Positions 13,882-31,764 of a DNA stretch of 36,782 nucleotides are shown here, piece by piece. Position numbers and translations under genes: made by a program. The stretch lies in the NCBI GenBank assembly GCA_024689425.1, contig JAILDN010000068.1, positions 1-36,782 of the forward strand, in the 5' to 3' direction. Source of the stretch: Methanobrevibacter sp. GTDB taxonomy: Archaea; Methanobacteriota; Methanobacteria; Methanobacteriales; Methanobacteriaceae. The notes below the pieces were generated by a model that worked only from the letters and a program-made list of their open reading frames with translations, searched no databases and had not been told where the DNA came from. The first letter of the stretch is position 1; the number at the start of each line of letters is the position of its first letter.

Positions 13882-13989
13882 AAATACTTTAATTTGAACT
13901 ACCACCATAAAAGTCAAGGTATTCTTGTACATTTAAGATAAACAATAAAATATTTAATTATCTTGTTCAAGAATATTATTAAGAGTAAA

Positions 13990-15669
13990 ATGAAAAAATT
14001 TGTTAAATTCGCATTTAAACGACATAAATTAAAAGTTTTTTTGATATTAATATTTTCAATATTACAAACTTATTTTCAATTAAGCATTATTAAGTTATTT
14101 GAAACCGCTTTAAAACACATGGAAAATAAAGAAATAGCTTTATTAAATGCTGATGGACAATTAATGATTATTTATTCAATTATATTAATTTCTTTAATGA
14201 TTGCAATAGTGTATTTGGTAAACAATATTACAATTGCAATCGGTCATGAGAGTCGTGAGAAAATATTTCATATTATGAACCGTTTACCTCCAAAAGAATT
14301 TAATAAATTCTCAAGTACAGATTTAATGAATAGAACTACAAGAGAAGTCTATTTACAACAAAATTTTATCCAAATATTTTTAAAAAAAATTTTAGTCATA
14401 CCCTTCGTTACAATAGGCATTATCATTGAAATTGCATTAATAGACATAGAATTTGCCATACTTCTCACAATTTTTACCGTGATTTTCGATGTTTTAATAA
14501 TTTATAAACTAAAAAAAATCACAACGTTCTATTTTGAAGTTAAAAAAAGTTATGGGAGAATCAATCTTTTATTCAGAGAAAAAATTACTGGATTAAAAAC
14601 TATAATGGTATTAAAAAAGGATTATTTTGAAAAAAAGAAATTTAATGAAGCAATCAGTAACTCATATGAAAAAAGTTTGAGCTTTCAACTAAGCCAATAC
14701 TACATTCCCCCATTACTTATTTTAATTTCTGATTTATTTATTGTATTTTTATTAATGTATTTATTTGATTATTCCCTTAACCCCGCCATAACCATCATAA
14801 ATCATAGCAGACATTATGATACGTTCGTTGAAATAGTAGTTATTCTTCAATACCTGATGTATTATGCCACCACCTTATTATCAATGCATGATTTTATAGA
14901 ATACTTGCCTAAAGGCTATTCTTCATCAAAGCGTATCGAAGAAATGCTTGATCTTGAAGAGAAAATTATTGAAAACAAAAACAAAACATTGAAAAGCAAT
15001 TTTAAAGGAATTGAATTTAGAAATGTATCATTTGGAAATAATGGCGATGAAATAATTAGAAATGTCTCGTTTAAAATCCCTGATAAATCAAGGTAGCTAT
15101 TGTCGGACCATATTCAAGCGGGAAAACTGTTTTAATGTATTTGCTCAATAGACTATATGAGGCAGATGAAGGCGAAATCCTGATTGGCGGATATGACATT
15201 AATGATTTGACATCCGAGGAACTTAAAGGCAAAATTAACTTTGCAATACAGAAGAATTTCATATTTCATGACACCGTCTACAACAATATTGTTCTGGGAG
15301 ATGAACTAATCACAAAAAGCGATGTTTATAAAGCCTGCGAGGCAACGGGCTTATCTAGTGAATTTAATGATGAATTTAATTTAGATACATTAATTTTTGA
15401 AAACGCTTCTAATTTGAGCAATATCCTTCAAAAAAAGATTATGCTGACCAGAAGCATTGTGCGTGACAAAGATATTTACATTTTCGATGAATATGATTAT
15501 CGTGTTGAAAATAAAACAAATATCATTTTAACTAAAAATATTGAACAGATTAAAGATATTGACCACATTATCGTTTTTAGATAAAAGTCAAGTTGTAGGA
15601 GAAGGCAATCATGAAGAATTACTCAATACCTGTTTAGTTTATAAAGAATTATATGTGGGGGATAAGTAA
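13990..15669 (+). pseudogene. ABC exporter subunit 1, broken by two frameshifts
   Basis: The frame encodes a membrane domain (about residues 1-300, with hydrophobic segments at the start and in the middle) and an ABC cassette, but is interrupted twice. At about 15091 one base is missing just before the Walker A region: the frame stops at TAG 15094, while the next frame continues VAIVGPYSSGKTV. At the T5 run 15574-15578 one base is extra: the cassette ends prematurely at 15584, while the original frame resumes with DKSQVVGEGNHEELL and ends at 15669. Ignoring the two errors gives about 559 residues. The cassette is also degenerate: the signature LSGGQ reads LSNIL and no switch histidine is seen. 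Either a decaying gene or assembly errors in a real one. The ATG at 13990 is the likely start; TTG 13963 is in frame. Confidence 0.8.
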
Positions 15670-17266: not shown

Positions 17267-17536
17267 TTATTCCAATGTGGCGACATTTTATCAAAGTTAG
17301 TAAATGCTATTTTACGAATTAATGAAATGATAAAAAGGAGAGTTCCTATTTGAAAATACACTTTATAATCTGAGAATATAAATTTAAAAGCATCAATTAC
17401 TTCATCGTAAAATAACTACACCATTCACTAGATATATATTAATATTTTATGAACAAATATATTTATAGATAAAATTTTTTTCTATTGTTTTAATAATTTG
17501 ATTATAGTCATTGCTAAAGGAAAGGAGATAAAAAAC
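17267..17536 (+). promoter_or_regulatory. Non-coding gap with the promoter of the deaminase gene
   Basis: These 270 AT-rich bases contain no convincing gene. A TATA-like stretch lies at about 17456-17467 and a near-ideal ribosome site AAAGGAGAT at 17521-17529, 7 bases before ATG 17537. Confidence 0.5.
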
Positions 17537-18004
17537 ATGGTAGATGAAAAATCCATAACTGAAAATAATGCAAATCGTATGAATAAAACTGAATATTATC
17601 TTGCAATTGCTTTTTCTGTATCAAAAAGAAGTACCTGTCTAAAAAGACGATATGGGGCAGTAATTGTCAATAATGATGAAATAATCAGTACTGGTTATAA
17701 TGGAAATCCAAGAGGGGATGAAAACTGTTGTGATAGAGGAAACTGTCAGAGAATGAACCTCCCATCCAATTCAGGCAACTATAATGATTGCTTTTCAGTT
17801 CATGCTGAACAAAATGCCATGATTAGTGCAAGCAGAAATGAAATGCTTGGATCAACAATTTATCTAGCTGGAGAAAAGTATGATGATGGAACTTGGGTAG
17901 AAATTGAAGATGCAGAACCCTGTCCAATATGCTTTAGAATGATAAAAAACTCCGGAATTGATAAAATAGTTAGTAAGAAAGGGATTTTAAAACTACGTGA
18001 TTAA
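17537..18004 (+). CDS. dCMP/cytidine deaminase family protein (ComEB-like)
   Basis: The 155-residue protein has the zinc-dependent deaminase signature: HAEQNAMI near 94-101 and PCPICF near 130-135, giving the His and two Cys zinc ligands and the catalytic Glu. The N-terminal RRYGAVIVNNDEIISTGYNGNPRG segment and an additional Cys-rich stretch (CCDRGNCQR) are typical of deoxycytidylate deaminases, which convert dCMP to dUMP for thymidylate synthesis. The ATG at 17537 was chosen over longer frames because of the AAAGGAGAT site. It stands alone between the ABC genes and the convergent MATE gene. Confidence 0.88.
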   Translation: MVDEKSITENNANRMNKTEYYLAIAFSVSKRSTCLKRRYGAVIVNNDEIISTGYNGNPRGDENCCDRGNCQRMNLPSNSGNYNDCFSVHAEQNAMISASRNEMLGSTIYLAGEKYDDGTWVEIEDAEPCPICFRMIKNSGIDKIVSKKGILKLRD

Positions 18005-18081: not shown

Positions 18082-18110
18082 AAGAGTTAAAAAGGATTAA
18101 TAATCCTTTT
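18082..18110 (-). terminator. Terminator of the NRPS-MATE operon
   Basis: A perfect 9-base stem (18090-18098 with 18102-18110, loop AAT) overlaps the MATE stop codon. On the minus strand it is followed by two T-rich tracts (TTTTTAACTCTTTTTT). The mirror side also has TTTTT, so it may stop transcription from both directions between the convergent genes. Confidence 0.65.
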
Positions 18111-19836
18111 AATTTTTAATTGTAATTACAGTACTGTTCAAACCCAATACTCTTGAGTAATCGATTTTATCTGCAATTTTATTTAAAACACTAATATTGT
18201 CAAATTCTAAATCATCCTTTTCAACTACTGGATTGAAGTCAATTCCAGTGTCTTTTATGGATACCAATATGTTATCATCATTATTTCTAACAATAACATC
18301 AATAGCATCAACGCTTTCGTTGGTGTTAATGATATTTACAAGCATTTCCTCAATAGCTAAACTGACAAAAGCAGCTGATTTGTTTCCAGATAGATACTCT
18401 TGGACTTCACGAGCTAGATTAACAGCCTCTTTAACATCCCCATTTATGGTATGCTCAAATACTTTTTTTCCGTCATTGTGCTTGTTAATAAAGAATCCTG
18501 AATATTCTCCATTCGTCTTTCTGTTAATATATGTTGAATAGGTAATGATGAACAATATTGTAAATGCCTCGGCAATTGCAAATGAAATCCAAATTCCATT
18601 TCCTCCAATCAAGAAAGACAATAAAACTGCAAACCCAATTGGACAAATAAACCCTTCAAGTAGTGAAATTATTGTAGATAATTGATTTTTCTGAATTGAT
18701 TGAGCATAGAAAGTATATAAAAAGGTTATTGCTGTTCCAACATAACTAATTGCAAAAATTCTAATAGCATTCAATACAATAGGAACATCAGAAGGATTTT
18801 TAACACTATACAATAATAGCAAAGCCTGCGGATAAACAACAAATAAAGCTGATAACACCAAACTTGCAGCCACTACAATCTTTAGAGATCTTTTAATTAT
18901 GTAATTTACACCAGAATAATCTTCTTCCTTAAAGTAAACAGACACAATTGGAGACATTGTCTGTGCAGTTCCAATTAAGAAGATGTACAATATAAATAAA
19001 CTATTATAACAGATACTAAAAGCAACGATACCAGATTTTCCAATGTACATACCTACAAGAATATTTACGAGGAATAATTTTAAAGTTAAGTATAATTGGG
19101 TGGATGAAGATGAAAATCCAGATTTCACGATTCGTTTTAGATAATCAAATAAGGATTTTACTTTTAGTTTTATAAATCTTAATGTGCGTTCTGGTTTAAA
19201 GAAATAATATGAAATAATAATTGAACCTACAATATATCCTGTCGAAGTTGCCAATGCAGCACCTGAAAGCCCCATGCCTAAAAATTTAATGTAAATAAAA
19301 TCACAACAAAGATTAACAATATTAGCTATTAGTATTGCTCTAAAAGGCAATGTTGGAATACCATCTGCGCGTATAAAGTAAGATAAACTCATCATATAAC
19401 ATAAAAACGGCATTCCAATAATTAATGCAATGAAAAATTGATTAACACTAGGGGCCAACTCCGGTTGTGATATACATAATAATTGTGAAATATTATTTGA
19501 AAACAACAATCCAAAAATCGTGATTAATAGGCCTATCGATAAAAGTGATGTAACGGATACGGAAAAATAACTATTACTTTTCTCATCATCGAATTCCGCT
19601 TTTGCAACAGAACAAAGTACACTACCCCCCAACCCAATCATCCAGTAAATGAGATTAACAAATGTAATAACTGGAGCTACACTCTGAATAGGAGCCAGAT
19701 TTCCCGCTCCAATCAAAAAACTTACAATTAATCCATCTACAAAAAGACAGATATTTCCAGCCATTGAAGTGAATAATGTTGGAAGGAAAAATTCCTTAAA
19801 TTTACTTCTCAATAAATTATAGTTTCTTTCATACAT
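18109..19836 (-). CDS. MATE-family exporter fused to an anti-sigma-type ATPase domain
   Basis: Residues 1 to about 440 form a polytopic MATE/MOP transporter (about 12 hydrophobic spans; N-terminal VDGLIVSFLIGAGNLAPI). Residues 462-575 are a cytoplasmic HATPase domain of the RsbW/SpoIIAB type: N-box LAIEEMLVNII with Glu497 and Asn501, and G1 box VSIKDTGIDFNP with Asp529 and Gly531. The ATP-lid glycines present in the stand-alone kinase nearby (GGLG) are missing: the equivalent segment reads FDNIS. The tail may therefore bind a STAS partner without working as a kinase (inference). The start ATG 19836 has a GAGGT site and lies 10 bases after the NRPS stop, so exporter and synthetase are made together. 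A longer in-frame start at 19872 would overlap the NRPS. Confidence 0.92.
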   Translation of the reverse strand: MYERNYNLLRSKFKEFFLPTLFTSMAGNICLFVDGLIVSFLIGAGNLAPIQSVAPVITFVNLIYWMIGLGGSVLCSVAKAEFDDEKSNSYFSVSVTSLLSIGLLITIFGLLFSNNISQLLCISQPELAPSVNQFFIALIIGMPFLCYMMSLSYFIRADGIPTLPFRAILIANIVNLCCDFIYIKFLGMGLSGAALATSTGYIVGSIIISYYFFKPERTLRFIKLKVKSLFDYLKRIVKSGFSSSSTQLYLTLKLFLVNILVGMYIGKSGIVAFSICYNSLFILYIFLIGTAQTMSPIVSVYFKEEDYSGVNYIIKRSLKIVVAASLVLSALFVVYPQALLLLYSVKNPSDVPIVLNAIRIFAISYVGTAITFLYTFYAQSIQKNQLSTIISLLEGFICPIGFAVLLSFLIGGNGIWISFAIAEAFTILFIITYSTYINRKTNGEYSGFFINKHNDGKKVFEHTINGDVKEAVNLAREVQEYLSGNKSAAFVSLAIEEMLVNIINTNESVDAIDVIVRNNDDNILVSIKDTGIDFNPVVEKDDLEFDNISVLNKIADKIDYSRVLGLNSTVITIKN

Positions 19837-19846
19837 CTTTAAACCT

Positions 19847-22800
19847 CTAAACACTAAAGAAATCAAGATCATCTAAGAACTTGACAAAATTATAAATGTA
19901 TTCTTCAGATATAAATGGCCATTTAATGCCTAAACGATATAATGCCTGAATAGTGTAGGTATTGTCTACTGGCAACCAAATCTTTTTAACCTTTCCAGAA
20001 CCAATTGATGTTATGAGACCAGAAACGCCCTCCTGTTTAGATTTATCAGCTAACGCTTGATCCAAAGCATTTTGATAGTCCTCTTCTTCAGCAGGTTCAA
20101 TATCAAATCCTAAAGGCTTGATAATTTCAATAATGTCACCAAAAGAAACACTATGATAATCATATGGATGGAACACTGTACACTCTTTAGGTGTTTTTGA
20201 AAGATTTACAATAGCTTTTGCGGTAATGTCGATTGGTGAAAATTCCACATTGCTCATTAACATTGAATAAGGCATTTTTCCAATTGTTACAAATGCTTTC
20301 AAACGATTAATGAATCCATTTGTTTCAAAGTTAATTTGGAATTCACTATCTGAGCTTCTTGCCATCAAGTTTCCAACTCTCATGATTTTAACATCCAAAT
20401 CGTCATTCACTGCAGCTTCCAATACAGCACGTTCTGCCAAGAATTTTGAATTGAGATACTGGTTGTCTACTGCCTGACCTATAAACAAATCATTTTCAGT
20501 AAATTTAACATCAACCGGAGGATAATTGTTTATACTTTCACCAGCAATACTGTATGTTGAAACCTGAACATATTTTGCATTTTTCATCTTTGCAAATTTA
20601 AGTCCGTTAATTACACCACCAAGGTTAATGTCTTCAATATCTGTTCCAGAAGAGAAGTGTTTTACATTAGCTGCACAGTTAACTACAGTATCAATCTTTT
20701 CGGAAACAAGATTTTCAAAGTCTTCAGGGTTAGTGATATCACCTTCAATAATGTGCAACCTTTCAGAGAATGCATCCTTATATTCATTGGAGAAATAATA
20801 GAATAGCAATGATTTTAATCTTTCTTCACCACTTAACACTTTATTTGCCCTTATGAAACAATAAATATCACCATTTTCATTTTCTAACAATTCACGTAAG
20901 ACATGAATTCCTAAAAATCCAGTAGCTCCCGTAAGTAAAACATTACCAAGACTATCCTTGATTTCACCTTTGCTGATTGTTTCAAGATTGTTTTTCTTAA
21001 GCAAGGCATTAATTTGGGAATAATCATAGGTCAATTCTGATTTCTTCTCCAATGTTTCATCAGATAAAATAAACTCAGATAATGCTCTTGGAGTTGGATT
21101 TGAAAATACATCACCATAATTCAAGTTATAATTATGGTTTAATGCTTCCATAGTAATTTTTGTAACAAGTAAGGATGTTCCACCTATTTCAAAGAAACTG
21201 TCTGTGGCACTTACTTCATCAAGCCCTAAAATTTCAGCAAATAAGTTTGCAAAGAATGCTTCAACATCATTTTCAGGAGCAACATATTCCGTAATTAAGA
21301 CAGGTTCAGGCAAGTTTCTCAAATCGGTTTTACCGTTAACGGTTTGAGGCATTTCATCAAGTTCCATATAAACTGTTGGAACCATATAATATACCAGTTT
21401 TTCAGCAAGAGATGCCTTCAAATCATCAATATTAATTGAATATCCGTTTTCTTCACGATTTTCATCTTTATAATCATCATGAACTGTGAAATAAGCACAT
21501 AAGTGGTCATTACCCTTAATTTTTCTTACAACCACCGCAACGGATTTGATTCCAGGATATTTTGAAAGATCTACTTCAATTTCTCCGATTTCAATTCTCA
21601 AACCTCTAAGTTTAATCTGATTGTCCATTCTTCCAAATACATAATAGTCACCATCTTCAGTAACTTTAACGAAGTCACCAGAACGATAGAATCTGATTCC
21701 ATTAATTACTTCATAGGCCTCTGCATTTTTCTCAGGACGGTTCAGATATTCTCTTGAAACACCTTTTCCTGCAATATACAATTCCCCAATGACATTTGGA
21801 GGTAGAGGATTTGAATCAAAATCCATAACTCTCTCATGAACATTGAATAGTTCCTTTCCAATATGGATATCTGGACTTTCAAGTAGCTGACCGTTACAAT
21901 AAACCGTAGTTTCAGTCGGCCCATACATGTTGAATAGTTTTCCATTTGAATTTTCGCTGAGCAATTCATATAATCTTTTGGAGAATGGTTCTCCCGCATG
22001 AATATATACTTTAAATCCATACATTGTTTCCTGCATTGCTTCAATTTCCAGATACTGTAACAGGCGTGAAGGAGTTGCAATGTAAACATTGGCCCCGCTT
22101 CTGTGAATCAAGTCCATCATTTCAATCGGATCCTTGTATTCCACATCATTTGCAAACACCATAGGAACACCATTTAACAAAGATCCCATCAGTTCCTGTT
22201 GGAATACATCAAAAGCAACTGTTGTTGTTGATAAAACCTTATAATCTTCTTTTTCAAGATTGTGTACTAATTCATATGTACAGACATTTCTTGGGTCCGG
22301 ATAAACGAAGTTTGCAATGTTTCCGTGCTCCAGGATAACTCCTTTAGGAAGTCCTGTTGAACCTGAAGTGTAAATAAGGTATGCCATGTTGTTGGCATGT
22401 ACATCAGGATTAGGATTTGAAGTGTCTTCATGTTTAAGCAGTTCATTAACATCCAATAGGTTTTCAGAGTACTCACTTAAATCAATGCATTTTTTCTCAA
22501 TTACATCATCCACAATTATGAATTTTGATTCACTGTCAGTCAAGACATGCTCAATTCTTTCAGAAGGATATTCTGAGTCCACAGGAATGAATGCTGCACC
22601 AGATTTTAAAATACCGAATATGGATGCAATCACATTACTGTTCCTATTCAATATGAACATTACCCTGTCTTCAGGACCGACACCTTTTTCAATAAGGCTG
22701 TGGGCAATTCTGTTTGCTTTCTTATTTAATTCATCATAAGTGAATTCACCGTCGGTAGCATATAGGATAACCCTATCAGGATGCAATTCCGCTTGATTTT

Positions 22801-25800
22801 CAAATATCTTATTCAATCTGTCTTCTGGAATTTCATCATATTCCAAATCATCAGCACTCCAATCATCATTTTCAATGATTGAAATATCTTTCATCAAAGT
22901 AGTCTGATCGAATGTTTGGAACTTGTTTAAGACAATGCGGATACAATCAAGGAAAGTACTAATTAAAGTATCTGAGTACAATTGGTCGTTGTATTCACAG
23001 AAAATTCTGTATTGGTTATCTACTTCAACCACATTAAGACTTATTTTAAATTTCAATCCTTCATAATCAAGTGATTGTCTTTCGACACTCATTCCACCGA
23101 TTTCAATGTCTTCAATGATTTTTCCATGATATGCGTATAATATCTCCGGAGTGATATCAAATTCATTTGAAATTTCAGTTAAAGGATATGAAGAGTAAGT
23201 CAATACATTCAACCATTCCCCATTAACATATTCGAAATATTCCTTAATAGTCAAATCAGAATTTAACTTTAATGCTAAAGGAAGGGTTTTAACCATCATT
23301 GCCAATGTTTTTTGCTGGTTTGGATTGAACCTACCATTGGTAATTGTAGCAATAAATGTATCTCTTTTATAAACAAATTTGTTTAAAACAAATGAAGTTG
23401 CCGCCAGGAATAAATTATTTTGACTGATGTTTGATTTCAAACAGAATTCATCAATAGCTCCTTTATCTAAGAAAACATCCTCAATTGCTGCTTTACCTTT
23501 TGATTCATCACCATTAATGTCCTGTGCAATCACAGTTGCATCATCAAATTCTTTTATTTTGTTAAAGAAGAATAGTTCTGCTTCTTTGTATAAGCTAGAT
23601 TGTTCTGTTTTGATTTCGTTCAATGAATATTCAAATCCGTCAAGCTCTTCAAGTTCATAGTCCTTTCCATCATAGATTTTAGCAATTTCATCAAATAATA
23701 TGTTAAGTGAAGTTCCGTCAACAATAATATGGTGGAAATCGGCCAGAAGCATTGAATCTCCAACTATCTTGAATCTGAACAGTGGCCCTTCTTCCAGTTT
23801 GAATGGCTGTACAAATTCATCCAAATCAACTTCCTGAACCATTTCAATCATATCATCAACTTTCAAATCATCCCTTCTCTGTTGGTAAACTTCACCGTTC
23901 TCCATTACAATTCTTGTCTTTAAATATGGGTGATTTTCAATAGCTGTGATTATTGATGACTTGAGTCTTTCTGCATCGATACCTTCACTGAATTCCATTT
24001 TCTTTGGAAGATTGTATGCTGTGTTTTCAGGGTCTTTAATACAGTCAAAGTAAACTCCAAGCTGATTTGAAGTCAATGGATACAATTCCTGAATATCCTC
24101 TGTTTCATCATCGACAATGTTCATTTCAGAAGCTATTTTTTCAATTGTCTTATGGCTCAATATTTCTGTAACATTCATCTGAGCATTCAAATTGCTGTAG
24201 ATTGCTGAAGTCAATTTAATTACAGACAATGAAGTCAATCCTATGCTGAACAAGTCCGTATTTACACCAAACTCATCAATGCCTAAAATTTCAGAAACCA
24301 TGTTGAATAGTTCCTTTTCAATATCTGTTCTTGGTTTTATGAATTCATCAATGTCAATTTCGGGATCAGGCAAGTTTTTAAAGTCTGTTTTTCCATTAGG
24401 TGTTTTTGGAAATTCATCAAGTTGTGTGAAATATGACGGAATCATATATTCAGGCAATGAATCAGCCAAGTGCTGTTTTAAATCATCTAAGTCATTATAT
24501 TCTGTTGCTGTGAAATAAGCACATAAATGTTCTATTGAATTGATTTTCTTAACTACAACTTTTGAGAGAGTCACATTTTCATAGTTTGCAATGGCCCCTT
24601 CAATTTCGGACAATTCTATTCTTAAACCTCTGAGTTTGATTTGAGTATCATTACGTCCTAAAACATACAGCTCTCCATCATAGTCTTTCTTACCTAAATC
24701 TCCAGTGTTATAATATGGAATGTCATTTAATTGCATGAATACCTTCTCTGTCTGTTCAGGATTATTCAGATAACCTCTTGCAATTCCCGCACCTCCGACA
24801 TAAATTTCACCGGATACATATGGAGGTAGCTGATTTCCATCAATATCCATTACCTTATCCACAACATTCAGCATTTTCCATCCTGCAGTTACATTAGGAG
24901 AGTCAATTAGTTTATAATGTGAAGCTATTGTTACCTCTGTTGGCCCATATGAGTTGTAAATGTCTGCTGAAGTGTATTTTGACAATCTATCAAATAACAC
25001 TGGAGGGAATCCTTCACCACCTACAACAATAACCTTGCAGTTGCCAATAACTTCCTGAATTTCTTCAAGTTGCAAGTATTCGAGCAGTCTTGTTGGTGTT
25101 GAACCAAAACCTTCAGCACCAGTTGTTTTAAACAGTTCTACCAATTCCAAAGGATCAATTGCCTGTTCATCATTAGCGAATACCACCGGCAGACCATTCA
25201 GTATTGTTCCGAAGATTTCCCTTAAAAATACAATGAATGAAACAGTTGAAATTGAAATGAACTTATTACACTTATGATTTAACTCATAAATTGGAACATT
25301 TTCCTCAACATTAGCTATATAGTTTGAAATTCCCCTGTGAGTAATCATTACTCCTTTCGGTTTTCCAGTTGATCCTGAAGTGTAAATTAAGAAACAAAGA
25401 TTATCTGGAGTTAAATTAATCTCAGGATTAGAATCATCGTCTTCTGATAGTAATTCATCAACATCTATCGTATTTTCACCATCATATTCTATTTCAGATG
25501 AGGTAATGACAAACTTTGAGTCACTATCTTCAAGAATTTGGTTGATTCTGTTTTTCGGATAATTTGGATCGATTGGAATGAATGCCGCCCCCGCTTTGAC
25601 AATACCCAAAACGGCAGCAATCAAATCACTGTTTCTTCTCATCATAAACATTACTCTATCTTCAACATTAACCCCTCTTTTGATTAAAGCATTGGCAATT
25701 CTGTTTGCTTTTTTATTTAACTCATCATAAGTTAGTTCGCCGTCTTCAGCATAGAGTATTGTTTTATCAGGATTTTCAAGAGCAATGTTTTCAAATATCT

Positions 25801-27664
25801 TATTTATGATTCCTTCATTTGCAAGTTCGATTTCAAAGTCTTCATCCAATTCCAAAGTCTTGCAAATGGAAATGTTTTTAAGCAATACATCATCTGATGC
25901 GAATTTATCGAATAAAACATCCATTGCATTTAGGAATTCATCCATTAATTCCTTTGAATAGAATGATTCATCATAACTGATGTTGATCTTTCCACTTTCA
26001 AAGTTGAATACTAATTTATAATCTTTAGTGTCATATTCATCTTCAAAGAAAAGGATTTCACTTTCAAAGTCTAATTTTCGATTGTTTAAAAGAGGATAAT
26101 TTTTATATTCCTCAAAGCATTGTTTAAAATCGTCAAAAAACTCACGAACTGTCAAATCCGTATTAAAATGATAACCCGCAGCCACACGATTGTATGCAAT
26201 TAGAATATCTTTTGAAAATGAAAATTTGGTTAAGTTATACAGAAAAGTCGCAAGCAAGAATTTTTCCTTTGATAAACGGTACTTGTTAGCTATATTTTTT
26301 AATTTATCAATATCAACAGGTTTAGAGATTATCTTAAAGTTCACCTTATCCCCACTGACATCTGGTGAAATCGCAGTTGGATGATCAAATGAATTTATTA
26401 AATTGTTATAATAATTTTCAGCGTTGAAAAAGTCTATAACATCCACATTATAATCCCTGCATTTTTTAGATGAATCTTTATTAATTTGTTTTACTAAACG
26501 TTTAAGGCCTGATGCCATTGCATCTATTTCCTTTGAGCTAAAACAGGATTTGTCATATTCAATGAATATTGACTGCAATCCTTTTTCATCAGAATAGTTC
26601 TTGTTTATTCTGAAGTGAAGTGGGAATTTAATATCCTTTTGAAGTGTTAGGAACTTTGAATCCTGATCTGTGGAATTTGATACAATTGAAATCATTGAAA
26701 TGCAGTCAGGATCAATTCCTACATTTCTTAAATCTGTTGTATATTCACTGAATTGCAGTTTTGCATGACCCAACCCTTCTTTTAAAATGGATTTTGAATA
26801 TGCAAGCAATTCATCGAAAGTTAACTCTTCATCATACTCAAGTCTTAAAGGAATTGTATTTACAAACATTCCAAGCGCATCGCCTTGTCCAAAGTATCTT
26901 CCGTGAACGGATGTATTCAATACCAAATCTTTAAACAATTCATTGTCTTTTTTAGATTTTGATAGATATAAAAAATTAATTGCCAACGCAGTGACAAAAG
27001 GGGAATACCCTAAATCAGGAGTATTATCTAAAAGAACTTCAAGATACCCAAGCTGTGAATCATCAAAGGAATACCAATCCTGAGAATAATCTTTTAATGT
27101 TTCCAACCAGTATTGCTTATCATCACTGGCTTCACCAGATTTCAAATAGTCCAATTCCGCATTGACATATGTTTCATAGGAATAATCTATTGGAACATAT
27201 TCATCATTGTTTTTATAAGCTTCAATGCATTTTTCAATTTCTTGCGGAACGATTGAGTAAAGTGATGTTCCATCAAGCAAAATGTGTTGAACAACACCAA
27301 TAAGAACACATGAAGAATCTGTTTTTAAAACTGCCCATTTATACAATGGAGAATCAAAGATATCGTCAAATGGTCTATCCAGATAGTCTTTAATAAATTC
27401 ATCAAGATTACCGTCTGGAACGTCAAATGTTTCAACATTTACATCAACGTCAACGTAATACTGTTTAAAGTCACCCGAATCATCATGTTTGATTTGCAAA
27501 TTTAAATAATTGTGAGAAACAGATTCAATAGCTAATTTTACTTTTTCAAAATCCCCTAAATCATAATCTTTTCTAAACTTAAGATAAAATGAATCGTTGT
27601 GAGGATTATTTATTTCAGAAAACAACAACATTTTTTGAGATGAAGATAAATCAAATAAATACAT
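19847..27664 (-). CDS. Two-module nonribosomal peptide synthetase with terminal thioester reductase
   Basis: The 2605-residue enzyme reads: C1 (1-420; QHILLDG with catalytic His127 and Asp131), an extra C-terminal C-domain lobe without the HHxxxDG motif (about 430-605), A1 (615-1095; YTSGSTGKPKG 761-771, Lys1092), T1 (Ser1145 in GLTSL), C2 (1195-1601; HHIIVDG 1311-1317), A2 (1616-2115; YTSGSTGLPKG, GPTETT, Lys2112), T2 (Ser2164 in GGTSL) and a reductase domain R (2241-2600; TGATGFLG 2245-2252, YxxxK 2403-2407). R domains release the chain as aldehyde or alcohol using NAD(P)H. A1 lacks the usual amino-anchoring Asp (Ile811 instead); A2 has it (Asp1819). I start at ATG 27664, just before LSSSQKMLL, the normal C-domain beginning, with a TATA box about 25 bases upstream; a frame extension to 27706 is possible. 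It is divergent from the regulatory operon and co-oriented with its exporter. Confidence 0.96.
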   Translation of the reverse strand: MYLFDLSSSQKMLLFSEINNPHNDSFYLKFRKDYDLGDFEKVKLAIESVSHNYLNLQIKHDDSGDFKQYYVDVDVNVETFDVPDGNLDEFIKDYLDRPFDDIFDSPLYKWAVLKTDSSCVLIGVVQHILLDGTSLYSIVPQEIEKCIEAYKNNDEYVPIDYSYETYVNAELDYLKSGEASDDKQYWLETLKDYSQDWYSFDDSQLGYLEVLLDNTPDLGYSPFVTALAINFLYLSKSKKDNELFKDLVLNTSVHGRYFGQGDALGMFVNTIPLRLEYDEELTFDELLAYSKSILKEGLGHAKLQFSEYTTDLRNVGIDPDCISMISIVSNSTDQDSKFLTLQKDIKFPLHFRINKNYSDEKGLQSIFIEYDKSCFSSKEIDAMASGLKRLVKQINKDSSKKCRDYNVDVIDFFNAENYYNNLINSFDHPTAISPDVSGDKVNFKIISKPVDIDKLKNIANKYRLSKEKFLLATFLYNLTKFSFSKDILIAYNRVAAGYHFNTDLTVREFFDDFKQCFEEYKNYPLLNNRKLDFESEILFFEDEYDTKDYKLVFNFESGKINISYDESFYSKELMDEFLNAMDVLFDKFASDDVLLKNISICKTLELDEDFEIELANEGIINKIFENIALENPDKTILYAEDGELTYDELNKKANRIANALIKRGVNVEDRVMFMMRRNSDLIAAVLGIVKAGAAFIPIDPNYPKNRINQILEDSDSKFVITSSEIEYDGENTIDVDELLSEDDDSNPEINLTPDNLCFLIYTSGSTGKPKGVMITHRGISNYIANVEENVPIYELNHKCNKFISISTVSFIVFLREIFGTILNGLPVVFANDEQAIDPLELVELFKTTGAEGFGSTPTRLLEYLQLEEIQEVIGNCKVIVVGGEGFPPVLFDRLSKYTSADIYNSYGPTEVTIASHYKLIDSPNVTAGWKMLNVVDKVMDIDGNQLPPYVSGEIYVGGAGIARGYLNNPEQTEKVFMQLNDIPYYNTGDLGKKDYDGELYVLGRNDTQIKLRGLRIELSEIEGAIANYENVTLSKVVVKKINSIEHLCAYFTATEYNDLDDLKQHLADSLPEYMIPSYFTQLDEFPKTPNGKTDFKNLPDPEIDIDEFIKPRTDIEKELFNMVSEILGIDEFGVNTDLFSIGLTSLSVIKLTSAIYSNLNAQMNVTEILSHKTIEKIASEMNIVDDETEDIQELYPLTSNQLGVYFDCIKDPENTAYNLPKKMEFSEGIDAERLKSSIITAIENHPYLKTRIVMENGEVYQQRRDDLKVDDMIEMVQEVDLDEFVQPFKLEEGPLFRFKIVGDSMLLADFHHIIVDGTSLNILFDEIAKIYDGKDYELEELDGFEYSLNEIKTEQSSLYKEAELFFFNKIKEFDDATVIAQDINGDESKGKAAIEDVFLDKGAIDEFCLKSNISQNNLFLAATSFVLNKFVYKRDTFIATITNGRFNPNQQKTLAMMVKTLPLALKLNSDLTIKEYFEYVNGEWLNVLTYSSYPLTEISNEFDITPEILYAYHGKIIEDIEIGGMSVERQSLDYEGLKFKISLNVVEVDNQYRIFCEYNDQLYSDTLISTFLDCIRIVLNKFQTFDQTTLMKDISIIENDDWSADDLEYDEIPEDRLNKIFENQAELHPDRVILYATDGEFTYDELNKKANRIAHSLIEKGVGPEDRVMFILNRNSNVIASIFGILKSGAAFIPVDSEYPSERIEHVLTDSESKFIIVDDVIEKKCIDLSEYSENLLDVNELLKHEDTSNPNPDVHANNMAYLIYTSGSTGLPKGVILEHGNIANFVYPDPRNVCTYELVHNLEKEDYKVLSTTTVAFDVFQQELMGSLLNGVPMVFANDVEYKDPIEMMDLIHRSGANVYIATPSRLLQYLEIEAMQETMYGFKVYIHAGEPFSKRLYELLSENSNGKLFNMYGPTETTVYCNGQLLESPDIHIGKELFNVHERVMDFDSNPLPPNVIGELYIAGKGVSREYLNRPEKNAEAYEVINGIRFYRSGDFVKVTEDGDYYVFGRMDNQIKLRGLRIEIGEIEVDLSKYPGIKSVAVVVRKIKGNDHLCAYFTVHDDYKDENREENGYSINIDDLKASLAEKLVYYMVPTVYMELDEMPQTVNGKTDLRNLPEPVLITEYVAPENDVEAFFANLFAEILGLDEVSATDSFFEIGGTSLLVTKITMEALNHNYNLNYGDVFSNPTPRALSEFILSDETLEKKSELTYDYSQINALLKKNNLETISKGEIKDSLGNVLLTGATGFLGIHVLRELLENENGDIYCFIRANKVLSGEERLKSLLFYYFSNEYKDAFSERLHIIEGDITNPEDFENLVSEKIDTVVNCAANVKHFSSGTDIEDINLGGVINGLKFAKMKNAKYVQVSTYSIAGESINNYPPVDVKFTENDLFIGQAVDNQYLNSKFLAERAVLEAAVNDDLDVKIMRVGNLMARSSDSEFQINFETNGFINRLKAFVTIGKMPYSMLMSNVEFSPIDITAKAIVNLSKTPKECTVFHPYDYHSVSFGDIIEIIKPLGFDIEPAEEEDYQNALDQALADKSKQEGVSGLITSIGSGKVKKIWLPVDNTYTIQALYRLGIKWPFISEEYIYNFVKFLDDLDFFSV

Positions 27665-27751
27665 ATTTGCCCTAAACTTTATTTTAAATATATATTTGTT
27701 GAACAAAATATTTAAGATAATAGGAATTATATAATTAATATAGTGATTAAT
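27665..27751. promoter_or_regulatory. Divergent promoter between the NRPS and the STAS-kinase-phosphatase-PPTase operon
   Basis: The 87 bases hold a minus-strand TATA box (plus-strand 27684-27697) about 25 bases from the NRPS ATG, and a plus-strand TATA-like box (27725-27738) close to the STAS ATG. No ribosome site is seen on either side, so both transcripts are probably leaderless or nearly so. Next to the NRPS TATA box is a perfect 13-base dyad, TTTGTT-G-AACAAA (27695-27707), a candidate operator that could control both directions. Confidence 0.55.
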
Positions 27752-28051
27752 ATGAACATTACTAAAAATTACAATGAAAAAGAATTAACATTATCAATTG
27801 AGGGTCGTATTGACACCATCACTTCACAAGACCTTGATAAAGAGATTAATGAAGAACTTGGTAATTTTGATTCATTAATTATGGATTTTACAGATTTGGA
27901 ATACATTTCAAGTGCAGGGCTTAGAGTTTTGATTGCAACCCAAAAGAAATTAAAACCTGAAAACGTGCCATTCGTTATCAAAAACGTTAATGATACTGTT
28001 GGTGAAATATTCAGAATGTCCGGCTTCGATAAAATATTAAAGATAGAATGA
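27752..28051 (+). CDS. STAS-domain anti-anti-sigma-type protein (RsbV/SpoIIAA-like)
   Basis: The 99-residue protein is a single STAS domain. It carries the family pattern IEGRIDTITS at the start and YISSAGLRVLI near 51-61; Ser54 matches the serine phosphorylated in SpoIIAA/RsbV. In bacteria, the unphosphorylated form binds the anti-sigma kinase and frees the sigma factor. Here no sigma factor exists, so another partner must be controlled. The ATG at 27752 is preferred over an in-frame GTG at 27743 because of the TATA spacing. The stop overlaps the next start by 4 bases (ATGA), indicating coupled translation with its presumed kinase. Confidence 0.93.
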   Translation: MNITKNYNEKELTLSIEGRIDTITSQDLDKEINEELGNFDSLIMDFTDLEYISSAGLRVLIATQKKLKPENVPFVIKNVNDTVGEIFRMSGFDKILKIE

Positions 28052-28425
28052 ACTCAATAACTCTAAAACCAGAAAAAAGTGAATTATACACTTTAAATGA
28101 GTTTATTTTAAATGAACTTGGAGAAAAAAACATTAAAGTCGATTTAATTGTTGAAGAGATATTCGTCAATATTGTCGATTACTCAAAAACAGATTTTATA
28201 ATCGTCAATGTTGAATTTAACAAACCAACATTGACAATCGAATTTATCGATAATGGAATTGAATTCAATCCCCTTTTAAAAGAAAATCCTTCCCTACCCG
28301 ATAATATTGAGGAAGCACAGATTGGAGGGTTGGGAATTTTTTTAACTAAAGAAATAGCAGATGAATTAGATTATAATTACAACAATGGTAAAAATTACTT
28401 GAAAATTATTAAAAAAGTGGAATAA
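28048..28425 (+). CDS. Anti-sigma-type serine kinase (RsbW/SpoIIAB-like HATPase)
   Basis: The 125-residue protein has the full GHKL ATP-binding set: N-box VEEIFVNIVDYS (Glu37, Asn41), G1 box FIDNGIEFNP (Asp68, Gly70) and G2 box IGGLGIFLTK (Gly93-Gly96). Such proteins phosphorylate the STAS partner on serine. The pattern around DxGxxFNP is close to that of the domain fused to the MATE exporter. It overlaps the STAS gene by 4 bases and the phosphatase gene by 1 base. In an archaeon its natural target beyond STAS is unknown; the exporter tail, the NRPS or a transcription factor are candidates. Confidence 0.93.
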   Translation: MNSITLKPEKSELYTLNEFILNELGEKNIKVDLIVEEIFVNIVDYSKTDFIIVNVEFNKPTLTIEFIDNGIEFNPLLKENPSLPDNIEEAQIGGLGIFLTKEIADELDYNYNNGKNYLKIIKKVE

Positions 28426-30320
28426 TGAACAATAAGATAAAACAAATTGCAATACCATTCATATTAATGTTAATATTTAATTTAGGGGTTTTTTATCTAA
28501 CCCATGGGAGAAGTTTTTCAGAAGGATTGAGCCCCCATGTTGGGATATTATTAATATCCGGATTAATATTCGGACCATATGGTGCAATCGGATCAGCTGC
28601 AGGAAATTATTTATGTGATTTAATAGTAGGTTACAGCCCAGCATCTTCTCTGATATCAGCTATCGTTAGTTTTGGTGTGTCTTACCTTGCATATAAATTA
28701 TGGTACAATAAATACAAAAGACGTGCTGAAGGTACAAGACCAAAATTGAACAATACAACAAATATCATCTTGTTTATAGGCATAATCTTTATTTGTGGAG
28801 CGTTGTATTCATTATTGCATGGAAAATTGCTTTATATATTATATCCAAACACCATCCCAATAAATAATCTTATTGAATTTAGATACTTCCTGAACTTTGT
28901 TAATTCATCAATTATCTTTGGGATAATTGGAATGTGGATTTCAAATAAAACTGATCTTATTTATATTCCAAAACCATCTAAAAAAGAAGTTAATGAAAAA
29001 TTATACGAAATTTTAGGAATATTATTGGTATCTACTTTAATATTAACAGTGATAATTGATTATTGGATTACCTTAGACAACAATATCGTCATTGCTGAAT
29101 TTATAATCACTACTTTAATTTTATTTGCCTACCTTTCAAAACCGATTAATGTTGATGTGAATCCAATAAATTCCAAATCCATACCCGAAGAAATAATGAA
29201 CATATTCCACTTAACAGTACTATTCATCATAATTATGGGCATTTTAATATCCTATGATCCCACAGTAATTATCGCCATTGAAGAACTTTTCCAATTAGAT
29301 TTTAATGAGATTGTACCTTCAATTATGGTATTAATAGACATTTTACTCATAATTTTCATTATCCCATCAATCAGCGTTTTGAAATATATTGAAATCAAAG
29401 TCATTGAACCAATCCTTTCATTTTCAAAAATTGAAGATTTTATCCATGAAAATGAAAAGATTGAATCTGATAAATTAGTAAGCATCTATTCTGATTATAT
29501 CAATAAAGAAACTGAAATTGGAACACTTGCTCGCTCATATACGGATTTAATTAACTTCAACAACAACTATATTGAAAATATTCGTGAAATTGAAGGTGAA
29601 AAAGAGCGCATCAAAGCAGAACTCGACATTGCAACAAGAATTCAGGCTGCAAACCTACCAACCGAAGCCCTTAAAAATGAAAATTATATTGTTAATGGTT
29701 ATTCAAAACCTGCAAAAGAAGTTGGGGGAGACTTTTTTGATTATTATCAATTAAACGATGACAATTTGGCCATCGTAATCGGAGATGCATCAGGCAAAGG
29801 TGTTCCAGCAGCAATCCTTGCAATGATAAGTCAATTCACAATAGAACAATTACTTAAAAGCGAATTAAATCCTTCCAAAGTTCTATACTCCATGAACAAC
29901 AAATTATGTGAAAACAATTCAGAATCAATGTTTATGACATTATGGCTTGGAATATACAACAAAACAACTAAAAAATTAACATTTTCAAATGCGGGACACA
30001 ATCCCCCACTAGTCAAAGAAAATGGGGAATTTAAATACCTGAATATTGACAGCGGTATCGTTTTAGGAATTATAAATGACTTTGAATATACCGAAGAAGA
30101 AATAACCTTAACAAATGAAATAGTAGCATACACCGACGGTATAACCGATGCCAACAATAATAACCATGAAATGTATGGGGAAGATAGACTTTTAAACTTC
30201 TTTAATGAATTTAAACTTGATAATGATCCAATCCGACCACTATTAAATGATATTAATGACTTCACTAAAGATGCAGAACAATATGATGACATGACATTAT
30301 TATATTTAAAGATAAAATGA
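28425..30320 (+). CDS. Membrane-bound PP2C/SpoIIE-type serine phosphatase
   Basis: The 631-residue protein has an N-terminal membrane region with about nine or ten hydrophobic spans (residues 5-325), including a glycine-rich FGPYGAIGSAAGNYLCDLIVG stretch reminiscent of ECF substrate-binding (S) proteins, then a HAMP-like linker (about 325-385), the helix ELDIATRIQAANLP, and a C-terminal PP2C domain with all metal-binding segments: VGGDFFDYY, IGDASGKGVPAA, NAGHNPPLV, YTDGITDA and DDMTLL. In bacteria such RsbU/RsbP-like phosphatases dephosphorylate the STAS protein in response to a signal. The membrane region is therefore the probable sensor. Overlaps of 1 base upstream and 4 bases downstream show tight coupling with the kinase and the PPTase. 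Confidence 0.93.
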   Translation: MNNKIKQIAIPFILMLIFNLGVFYLTHGRSFSEGLSPHVGILLISGLIFGPYGAIGSAAGNYLCDLIVGYSPASSLISAIVSFGVSYLAYKLWYNKYKRRAEGTRPKLNNTTNIILFIGIIFICGALYSLLHGKLLYILYPNTIPINNLIEFRYFLNFVNSSIIFGIIGMWISNKTDLIYIPKPSKKEVNEKLYEILGILLVSTLILTVIIDYWITLDNNIVIAEFIITTLILFAYLSKPINVDVNPINSKSIPEEIMNIFHLTVLFIIIMGILISYDPTVIIAIEELFQLDFNEIVPSIMVLIDILLIIFIIPSISVLKYIEIKVIEPILSFSKIEDFIHENEKIESDKLVSIYSDYINKETEIGTLARSYTDLINFNNNYIENIREIEGEKERIKAELDIATRIQAANLPTEALKNENYIVNGYSKPAKEVGGDFFDYYQLNDDNLAIVIGDASGKGVPAAILAMISQFTIEQLLKSELNPSKVLYSMNNKLCENNSESMFMTLWLGIYNKTTKKLTFSNAGHNPPLVKENGEFKYLNIDSGIVLGIINDFEYTEEEITLTNEIVAYTDGITDANNNNHEMYGEDRLLNFFNEFKLDNDPIRPLLNDINDFTKDAEQYDDMTLLYLKIK

Positions 30321-30949
30321 TTAAAGTAGCTTATCTCGACGTTAGTGATTTAAATTTGTCAAAAGCATATAAATTACTGCCCAAAAGCAGAAGGGACAAA
30401 ATGAACAAATTTAAATTCGATAAAGACAAAAGACTTAGTGCTGGAGCATATCTGCTTTTAGATAAATTGCTGAAAGAAGAAAAAATTACCCAACCTAATT
30501 TTAAAATTGGAATATACGGAAAAGCATACATATCCAACCATGAAAATATTCATTTTAATTTAAGTCATTCCGGCAAAATGGTTTTATGTGCAATATCTGA
30601 CATGGAAGTTGGAGTAGATATTGAATATATTGATCCCACAATTGATTTAAACATAGCCAAACATTACTTCTACAACAGAGAATATGAAAATATCATGAAT
30701 GCACAAAACAGACCTGATGAATTTTTCAAGTATTGGGTTTTAAAGGAAAGCTACATGAAATATACTGGCCTTGGAATGAACTTAAAACTGGACAGCTTTG
30801 AAATAATAATTGAAGATGAAATTAAACTTAAAAATGACAACAAAAACTTAAAATTTAATTTGTTTGATATTGAAAATTATAAAATTGGAATAGCCAGCCA
30901 CTACAATGTATCTGAGTTACTAGAAATAAATATTAACGAATTATATTGA
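30317..30949 (+). CDS. 4'-phosphopantetheinyl transferase, Sfp type
   Basis: This enzyme transfers the phosphopantetheine arm from coenzyme A to the serine of carrier domains. The 210-residue protein has the Sfp-type signature: FNLSHSG at 80-86, GVDIE at 99-103 (Mg-binding Asp and Glu) and WVLKESYMKYTG at 140-151. Archaea of this group need no fatty-acid carrier protein, so the two T domains of the neighbouring NRPS (Ser1145, Ser2164) are the natural substrates. It overlaps the phosphatase gene by 4 bases (ATGA), so activation of the synthetase is co-expressed with the signalling proteins. Confidence 0.94.
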   Translation: MIKVAYLDVSDLNLSKAYKLLPKSRRDKMNKFKFDKDKRLSAGAYLLLDKLLKEEKITQPNFKIGIYGKAYISNHENIHFNLSHSGKMVLCAISDMEVGVDIEYIDPTIDLNIAKHYFYNREYENIMNAQNRPDEFFKYWVLKESYMKYTGLGMNLKLDSFEIIIEDEIKLKNDNKNLKFNLFDIENYKIGIASHYNVSELLEININELY

Positions 30950-30990: not shown

Positions 30991-31142
30991 CCCATTAGTT
31001 AAATGACTTAATTTTCTGAAAGGGTTATTTTACAAGTGAATTTATTGAGTAAGTAGAAACATTAAAATGATTATATCAATTTCTTTCTTTTATTTTATTA
31101 GTTGATTATTTTTGAGTAATAAACTGTGGAATTGACAATATG

Positions 31143-31176
31143 GAGTATATATATTACTAATTACATACTCATAGTC
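31143..31176 (+). promoter_or_regulatory. TetR-gene promoter with overlapping imperfect dyad
   Basis: TATATATAT (31146-31154) lies about 25 bases before ATG 31177, the spacing of a leaderless archaeal start. An imperfect inverted repeat (GAGTATATA at 31143-31151 and TACATACTC at 31162-31170, one mismatch) covers the TATA box and start region, a fitting place for autorepression. Confidence 0.5.
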
Positions 31177-31764
31177 ATGAAAGAATTTAGCAGCACTGAT
31201 GAAAAGATTATCAAGGCCACATTCGGAATTCTTCAAAGGGAAGGCTTCGCCAAGGCGACTACCAAAAAAATTGCTGCCGAAGCGGGCGTGAATGAAGTAA
31301 CAATTTTTAGAAACTTTCAAAACAAGAACAATCTGGTTGAGATTACAAAAAATTATTATCTGCAGTTATTAATTGATAAATTAGAGGAAATATTTGAATT
31401 TAAAGAAGATGAAGGAATCGAAGAATATCTCAAAATTTCTTTTTTTGGCATTTTAAATCTTTCAGATGAAGATTTCAACATAATCCGAATAGCCATGGAA
31501 GAAGTAAGGGAAAATCCTGAGAATCAACTTTTAATATCTGAAATCACTGATGTGATATTAAATAAATTAGAAGAATTTTTCAAATTGAAAATAGAAAAAG
31601 GTATAATTAGGAAAGTTAATCCAAAATCCTTGGCCATCATGTGTTTTGGCATCCTATTCCACTCTGTCATATTATGGAAGATTTATAATAAGGATCTTGA
31701 CTTTAAAACAAATTATTATGCAGATGACTTGATAAATATAATGTTTGAAGGTATTAATCCGTAA
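31177..31764 (+). CDS. TetR-family transcriptional regulator
   Basis: The 195-residue protein has an N-terminal TetR helix-turn-helix (residues about 8-55: IIKATFGILQREGF, TTKKIAAEAGVNEVTIFRNF) and a helical C-terminal ligand domain. Such proteins usually repress an exporter or small-molecule gene and let go on binding a ligand. I chose ATG 31177, which fits the TATA box 25 bases upstream; a longer frame from TTG 31126 would begin with unrelated hydrophobic sequence. It follows the NRPS locus but is separated from it by about 230 bases. The perfect palindrome at 31861-31880, just past the gene, is the likely operator. Confidence 0.92.
   Translation: MKEFSSTDEKIIKATFGILQREGFAKATTKKIAAEAGVNEVTIFRNFQNKNNLVEITKNYYLQLLIDKLEEIFEFKEDEGIEEYLKISFFGILNLSDEDFNIIRIAMEEVRENPENQLLISEITDVILNKLEEFFKLKIEKGIIRKVNPKSLAIMCFGILFHSVILWKIYNKDLDFKTNYYADDLINIMFEGINP

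Follow-up and report, generated by a model that had tools for sequence, protein, structure and literature searches.

Because archaea lack sigma factors, the target of partner switching in these organisms is an open question. The locus described here poses it in a definite form, since genes for a STAS protein, an RsbW-like kinase and a PP2C phosphatase lie beside those for a nonribosomal peptide synthetase (NRPS) and a MATE-family exporter; on which product would the switch act? The window, the whole stretch of 36,782 nucleotides analysed, is carried as contig C96 by a 94%-complete Methanobrevibacter genome of 1.75 Mb (G000). The features are listed below with the basis of each assignment in brackets.

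18109..19836, minus strand: MATE-family exporter with a C-terminal RsbW-like domain, a 12-helix membrane part followed by an alpha/beta domain (Pfam MatE, AF2)
18112..18471, minus strand: exporter-borne RsbW/SpoIIAB-like domain, residues about 468-587 (Pfam fragment, phmmer, hhalign, Foldseek)
19847..27664, minus strand: NRPS with the order C-A-T-C-A-T-R, ending in a thioester reductase (Pfam, NCBIfam, motifs)
27665..27751, no strand assigned: divergent intergenic region with a conserved, TATA-like TTNAACAAAATATTTAA element (14 homologous regions aligned)
27752..28051, plus strand: STAS protein, RsbV/SpoIIAA-like (Pfam STAS, TIGR00377)
28048..28425, plus strand: soluble RsbW-like serine kinase, HATPase_c_2 (Pfam, motif counts)
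28425..30320, plus strand: membrane-anchored SpoIIE-type PP2C phosphatase (Pfam SpoIIE, hydrophobic segments, PP2C motifs)
30317..30949, plus strand: Sfp/AusB-like 4'-phosphopantetheinyl transferase, PPTase (Pfam ACPS, NCBIfam AusB)
31126..31764, plus strand: TetR-family regulator adjoining the operon (Pfam TetR_N, 5.1e-11)

The open reading frames were re-found in place and each gene was confirmed by Pfam or NCBIfam, so the genes and coordinates given in an earlier note on this DNA stand. The same is true of the junctions it described: 10 bases lie between the NRPS stop (19847) and the MATE ATG (19836) on the minus strand, and the divergent genes for the STAS protein, RsbW-like kinase, PP2C phosphatase and PPTase overlap in turn by 4 bases (28048-28051), 1 base (28425) and 4 bases (30317-30320). 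Most MATE homologues begin at MYERNY, which supports the start at ATG 19836 and leaves a longer frame from ATG 19872 unsupported. The NRPS begins at ATG 27664 and not at TTG 27706. The TTNAACAAAATATTTAA element may act as a promoter. Elsewhere in the window, a deaminase gene weakly similar to a phage-defence dCTP deaminase model lies beside the MATE gene (17498-18004), an ABC exporter gene is in two frames (13963-15584, with a stop at 15096 and a restart at 15135), indicating a pseudogene or an assembly error, and two U32 peptidase/collagenase-like genes are in tandem, the start of the second within the first (5999-10847).

In their classes and motifs, the phosphatase, STAS protein and kinase agree with RsbU-RsbV-RsbW and SpoIIE-SpoIIAA-SpoIIAB of Bacillus. 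The STAS protein (Pfam 4.9e-16; TIGR00377 above cut-off) has the phosphorylatable serine of a partner-switching antagonist in an ISSAGLR-type motif, YISSAGLR, and this serine is kept in 65/65 sequences. The soluble kinase matches HATPase_c_2 at 1.5e-13 and has all of the N, G1 and G2 boxes of this class of serine kinase. The phosphatase, which has the PP2C motifs of the SpoIIE/RsbU type, matches Pfam SpoIIE at 1e-44 over residues 445-630, and its hydrophobic N-terminal region (about residues 4-327) is a candidate sensor. A second STAS gene is found in the window genome away from the window (G000:C49:24155-24424). Unlike the Bacillus systems, the locus has an additional RsbW-like domain without a G2 box on its exporter, and we found no sigma factor that could be the alternative partner of the kinase. 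Sigma-70 region 2 (Sigma70_r2, PF04542) had no match in the 94%-complete window genome, and thus the classical output of the switch is absent. A scan for sigma-70 promoters gave results at chance level and is irrelevant for archaea.

A direct candidate for the target, a point left open in the earlier note, can be recognized on the exporter itself. The MATE protein matches Pfam MatE at 4.6e-22, with two stretches above the PF01554 cut-off, and scores 117 bits against TIGR00797, under the cut-off of 147.4. AF2 modelling of the full-length protein (pLDDT 87) places helices over residues 7-440, in agreement with the 12 transmembrane helices of a MATE exporter, and an alpha/beta domain after them. 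Compared with a plain MATE, the protein has about 130 extra residues, and at its C-terminus is an RsbW/SpoIIAB-like domain, the key feature overlooked in the earlier note. A search of the whole protein against Pfam at 1e-3 did not pick up the C-terminal domain, and the tail was therefore analysed as a separate fragment and by profiles. As a fragment it matches HATPase_c_2 weakly, at 5.3e-5, under the gathering cut-off of the family. Compared with free RsbW kinases using phmmer, its best match is at 7.7e-8, and its own neighbour kinase is matched at 7.5e-6; profile-profile comparison of the exporter domain with the free kinases gives 97.3% (hhalign, E 2.6e-11). Assignment of the tail as a STAS domain was rejected (hhalign <2%). 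Modelled alone, the domain has a pLDDT of 76, falling below 60 in the stretch from G1 to G2, and the top 15 PDB matches of this model in Foldseek are all anti-sigma-factor kinases (SpoIIAB, UsfX, RsbW), the best being SpoIIAB 1l0o at 5.5e-6. The AF2 model, the match to 1l0o and the hhalign result together predict an RsbW/SpoIIAB fold. Among sequences of solved structures the sole match is SenB/LvrC 9qih, with an E value of about 0.1.

The N-box (EExxxN) and G1 (DxG) are retained in the exporter domain, with E508, E509, D541 and G543 invariant in 19 aligned fusions. The G2 glycine box (GGxG), which an ATP lid requires, is present in 0/70 distinct exporter domains compared with 57/57 distinct free kinases. 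Judged by these motifs, the exporter domain is probably a pseudo-kinase; we do not class it as a kinase, and it would act as an RsbW partner at most. It also has a conserved C-terminal hairpin, RVLGLNSTVITIK, that the kinases are without. In the tree the exporter-fused domains group as a single clade (UFBoot 99), separated from the kinases (UFBoot 100), and their dN/dS is about 0.05-0.13, about as low as in the transporter part, with synonymous sites near saturation. The domain has a single origin and is under strong purifying selection. MATE proteins beside other NRPS classes (class 2) have a far more degenerate tail in which both the N-box and G1 are lost; its profile comparison with the first-class tail (49%, E 1.7e-4) is suggestive. 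Eight further MATE fusions of about 575 amino acids (L168-L173, L184, L185) have partly degenerate tails, and no NRPS is labelled in the fetched stretches.

Whether this combination of genes is an accident of one genome can be judged from relatives. Condensation domains are found in 79, SpoIIE in 85 and PPTase in 86 of 139 Methanobacteriaceae genomes. The statement that NRPS genes are very rare in archaea therefore does not apply to this family, as was already known: rumen surveys describe hundreds of methanogen NRPS clusters (PMC8241843). Over the 139 genomes, NRPS co-occurs with SpoIIE (Fisher p 4e-19) and with PPTase (3e-20), p-values that overstate independence because the genomes are related. 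SpoIIE is present in 58/59 genomes with a MATE fusion, and the PPTase gene immediately follows the phosphatase gene in 37 genomes. Altogether the arrangement was seen again in tens of genomes, which is more than chance would give.

Gene maps were drawn for 60 relative loci, of which L039-L058 were chosen by SpoIIE near an NRPS or PPTase. Four gene orders keep one set of genes: the window's own divergent layout, seen in Methanobrevibacter (L039-L047); a colinear NRPS-MATE-STAS-RsbW-SpoIIE operon in three other genomes (L096-L098); MATE-STAS-PPT-RsbW-SpoIIE (L094); and STAS-RsbW-NRPS-MATE-PPT-SpoIIE (L095). Retention of the set while the order is shuffled argues for function. Among 26 non-identical NRPS and MATE pairs for which 1.8 kb or more of upstream sequence is visible, a sample selected partly by SpoIIE proximity, STAS is found in 23/26, the kinase in 21/26 and the phosphatase in 19/26. 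When loci were found by MATE similarity alone and had enough flank, the full set of STAS, kinase and phosphatase was beside the NRPS in 14/20; one more has STAS only, and five have no switch within about 2 kb, two of these having switch genes farther away (L137, and L157 on the same contig as L056). In the visible sequence of L116, L132 and L141, pairs of fusion MATE and NRPS are without switch genes. The earlier note had proposed that the neighbourhood would be accidental if relatives regularly lacked the switch. They do not, given the 14/20 loci with the full switch, and a minority without it nearby, such as L116, L132 and L141, does not alter this. The neighbourhood is supported as a conserved functional unit.

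It has been suggested by Leahy et al. 2010 that the NRPS genes of M. ruminantium are of bacterial origin (PMC2812497), and so the switch genes could have come along as baggage when a bacterial cluster was acquired horizontally, and do no regulatory work today. This is scarcely credible when the catalytic motifs are retained in most copies, dN/dS is mostly <0.2 and the gene content has been retained through rearrangements in several genera.

A different possibility is that the switch is transcriptional. The kinase would have as its second partner a transcription factor, such as a TFB paralogue or a TetR protein, and the domain on the exporter would be only a sink for STAS that gives feedback. 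Most known partner switches end in transcription (PMC8256260), the NRPS and the switch operon share an intergenic region with a conserved element, and a TetR gene adjoins some loci. In addition, lauric acid raises the transcripts for NRPS, MatE and PPTase together in M. ruminantium, with log2 changes of +1.26 for PPTase mru_0514, +1.20 for MatE mru_0069, +1.64 for MatE mru_0352 and +1.06 for NRPS mru_0351 (PMC5816558). These published RNA-seq data lend weak support to shared control of the cluster genes; they establish co-regulation of the transcripts and do not give its cause. However, the module has no transcription factor as a constant neighbour. Apart from those for NRPS, MATE, STAS, kinase, phosphatase and PPTase, each recurring gene is found in at most 15 of 61 stretches. 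The genome also has no sigma-70 family match. We consider a transcriptional output unlikely overall, but with a real chance of being correct. TetR was rejected as a constant part of the module, its homologues being in 8/61 surveyed stretches; the commonest extras among those profiled in the 61 stretches are an M24 peptidase, YcaO and an alpha/beta hydrolase.

Loci without an NRPS help to separate the exporter from the other possible targets. At L175-L177 (G128, G012, G102) the same MATE fusion is found with kinase, phosphatase and STAS genes and no NRPS in the stretch. Because fusion and switch occur together without an NRPS nearby, it is the exporter that constantly partners the switch. This bears on the interpretation in the earlier note, in which the conserved neighbourhood places production, carrier activation and export under joint control by phosphorylation, without a known direct target. 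The part of that claim concerning a conserved functional neighbourhood holds. Phosphorylation control of NRPS production and carrier activation is not directly supported; only the exporter is physically linked to the switch: the PPTase and NRPS are without a partner-switch domain at this locus, the NRPS-free modules point to the exporter, and at L079-L081 and L084 STAS, kinase and PPTase are kept with no phosphatase nearby. The position of the PPTase gene right after the phosphatase gene in 37 genomes and the intergenic region common to the NRPS and the switch operon would fit joint control, which we nevertheless regard as highly improbable.

Four genomes (L182, L187-L189) have a MATE protein with a degenerate RsbW-like tail together with STAS, a GH3-family amide ligase and two SpoIIE genes. 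The ligase, of 711 amino acids, has an intact C-terminal RsbW kinase domain. This is a sister module without an NRPS, in which a second biosynthetic enzyme has gained its own kinase domain. In Methanobacteriaceae, anti-sigma kinase domains might have become a general attachment for direct control at the protein level: carried on exporters (MATE) and biosynthetic ligases (GH3), such RsbW-like domains would allow one STAS/phosphatase circuit to gate both the making and the export of small molecules without a transcription step. We advance this tentatively, rating its chances at somewhat below even. Tandem SpoIIE pairs are also seen at L190-L198, with no MATE fusion or NRPS labelled in the fetched stretches.

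The NRPS has two AMP-binding, Condensation, two PP-binding and one thioester reductase domain in Pfam (NAD_binding_4, 1.2e-37). Its second C domain has HHIIVDG, corresponding to HHxxxDG, and the first QHILLDG; with the carrier serine and the reductase motif LLTGATGFLG, the protein has the C, A, T and terminal R domains of an NRPS with reductive release, and its product is predicted to leave as an aldehyde or alcohol. The closest named NCBIfam model is AusA (aureusimine, NF047350), at 1067 bits against a cut-off of 2500. Like AusA/AusB, the best-named NCBIfam matches, the locus combines two modules ending in a thioester reductase with a dedicated PPTase. It differs in that both proteins fall below the curated cut-offs, the NRPS has an extra N-terminal C domain, and its first A domain is without Asp235. 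Here, as in most homologues checked, from several genera, Ile replaces this residue (code IVR..GSIA), which suggests that the substrate is not an ordinary alpha-amino acid. The codes of the two A domains, IVR(G/S)(I/V)GSIA and DVQ(I/V)IAMVC, were read by pairwise alignment to a GrsA segment, and we know of no citable code that matches either.

The PPTase (Pfam ACPS 1.8e-14; NCBIfam AusB 1.8e-24, below cut-off) has the GxDxE and WxxKE motifs of the Sfp type as GVDIE and WVLKES. The window genome has one detected SpoIIE and one detected PPTase, both at this locus, and at least one further NRPS (an ORF of 6,909 codons) as well as three NRPS-bearing contigs open at both ends. The description of the locus as self-contained is thus not tenable: several NRPS loci have to share the single detected PPTase and SpoIIE. 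In other genomes, moreover, a STAS-kinase-phosphatase-PPTase operon lies away from any NRPS (L060-L073).

From these results we propose a sigma-factor-free partner switch with the peptide exporter as its output, a model that we hold equally likely to be right or wrong. The membrane SpoIIE-type phosphatase would sense a signal and dephosphorylate STAS, and the soluble RsbW-like kinase would re-phosphorylate it. Unphosphorylated STAS would leave the soluble kinase and bind the RsbW-like domain on the MATE exporter, and this binding would license export. A short peptide aldehyde or alcohol made by the NRPS would then be let out of the cell only in the presence of the signal. Through the operon's PPTase, the sole one detected in the genome, the activation of each NRPS in the cell would also be coupled to the switch operon. 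As the exporter domain keeps the fold, N-box and G1 and has lost G2, it is expected to bind STAS but not to phosphorylate it. Against the exporter model, control in trans has to be supposed for fusion pairs with no switch genes nearby (L116, L132, L141), and the degenerate class-2 MATE tails, with neither N-box nor G1, would not have to bind STAS. Bound nucleotide takes part in the GHKL partner contacts of SpoIIAB, and without G2 a domain may be a poor nucleotide binder. The C-terminal hairpin conserved in the exporter domain also sets it apart from the kinases.

Some of these observations would suit a regulatory or docking domain that works independently of STAS, either by sensing nucleotide state or by linking the pump to the NRPS or to its product. 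In favour of this, the domain conserves the N-box and G1 and is kept where switch genes are absent nearby (L116, L132), a degenerate form persists on other NRPS-linked MATE proteins, and the conserved extra hairpin is absent from the kinases. However, the fusion without an NRPS is still beside STAS, kinase and phosphatase genes at L175-L177, 58/59 fusion genomes have SpoIIE, and loss of G2 speaks against a nucleotide sensor. We judge this explanation unlikely as well.

The exporter model, if correct, has parallels among known systems. BtrU/V/W of Bordetella (type III secretion) and SypA/SypE of Vibrio fischeri also have a non-sigma output, and BtrU/W act on the secretion process (PMC8256260); the module of the window differs in being archaeal and NRPS-linked and in having the RsbW-like domain on the output protein itself. 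SLC26/SulP transporters likewise are membrane transporters with a cytoplasmic domain of partner-switch type, a C-terminal STAS domain, whereas here the kinase-like partner and not STAS is fused to a MATE protein. In the literature searched, which included few subscription journals, neither a MATE-RsbW fusion nor an archaeal partner switch of known target turned up. A scan of genome contigs for the fusion gave 48 loci, all archaeal, with search patterns derived from archaeal sequences. None of 60 plasmid records with MATE matches covered at least 80% of the query, and the plasmid MATE matches listed all end by residue 437, before the fused domain. The fusion is thus new within the literature and collections searched (archaeal genomes and plasmid records), and we do not claim that it is restricted to archaea.

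The locus is not wholly new, since parts of it were described by Leahy et al. 2010, and it is a variant of partner switching in which the exporter is the likely target. It provides a concrete proposed target for archaeal partner switching, with which the role of archaeal RsbV/RsbW/SpoIIE becomes testable using two small soluble domains. It also indicates possible signal-gated export of natural products in rumen and gut methanogens, organisms relevant to methane mitigation. If the model is true, manipulating the switch could reveal methanogen peptides. RsbW-domain grafting as a general device, if borne out, would be a class of partner switching undescribed in the literature searched.

The closest precedent is M. 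ruminantium M1, for which Leahy et al. 2010 report clusters mru0066-0071 and mru0512-0516, with NRPS, MatE, antagonist, phosphatases, PPTase and kinase, and propose sensing, regulation and export (PMC2812497). The proximity of NRPS genes to MatE, serine phosphatase and anti-sigma antagonist genes in this species, mentioned in the earlier note, is borne out by that account. As in the window, one M1 locus has an NRPS with a terminal reductase, MatE, an anti-sigma antagonist and a serine phosphatase; a second has an antagonist, PPTase, phosphatase and RsbW-type kinase, so that the parts described there are spread over two loci, compared with a single place and an intact fusion in the window. We found no mention of an RsbW-like domain on MatE in the accessible text (PMC2812497). 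The gene order and two clusters of another genome in our set, G019, are consistent with M. ruminantium M1, and its MATE gene (L055) is split into two frames, one of 486 amino acids and an RsbW-like frame of 92 amino acids, that overlap by 4 bases.
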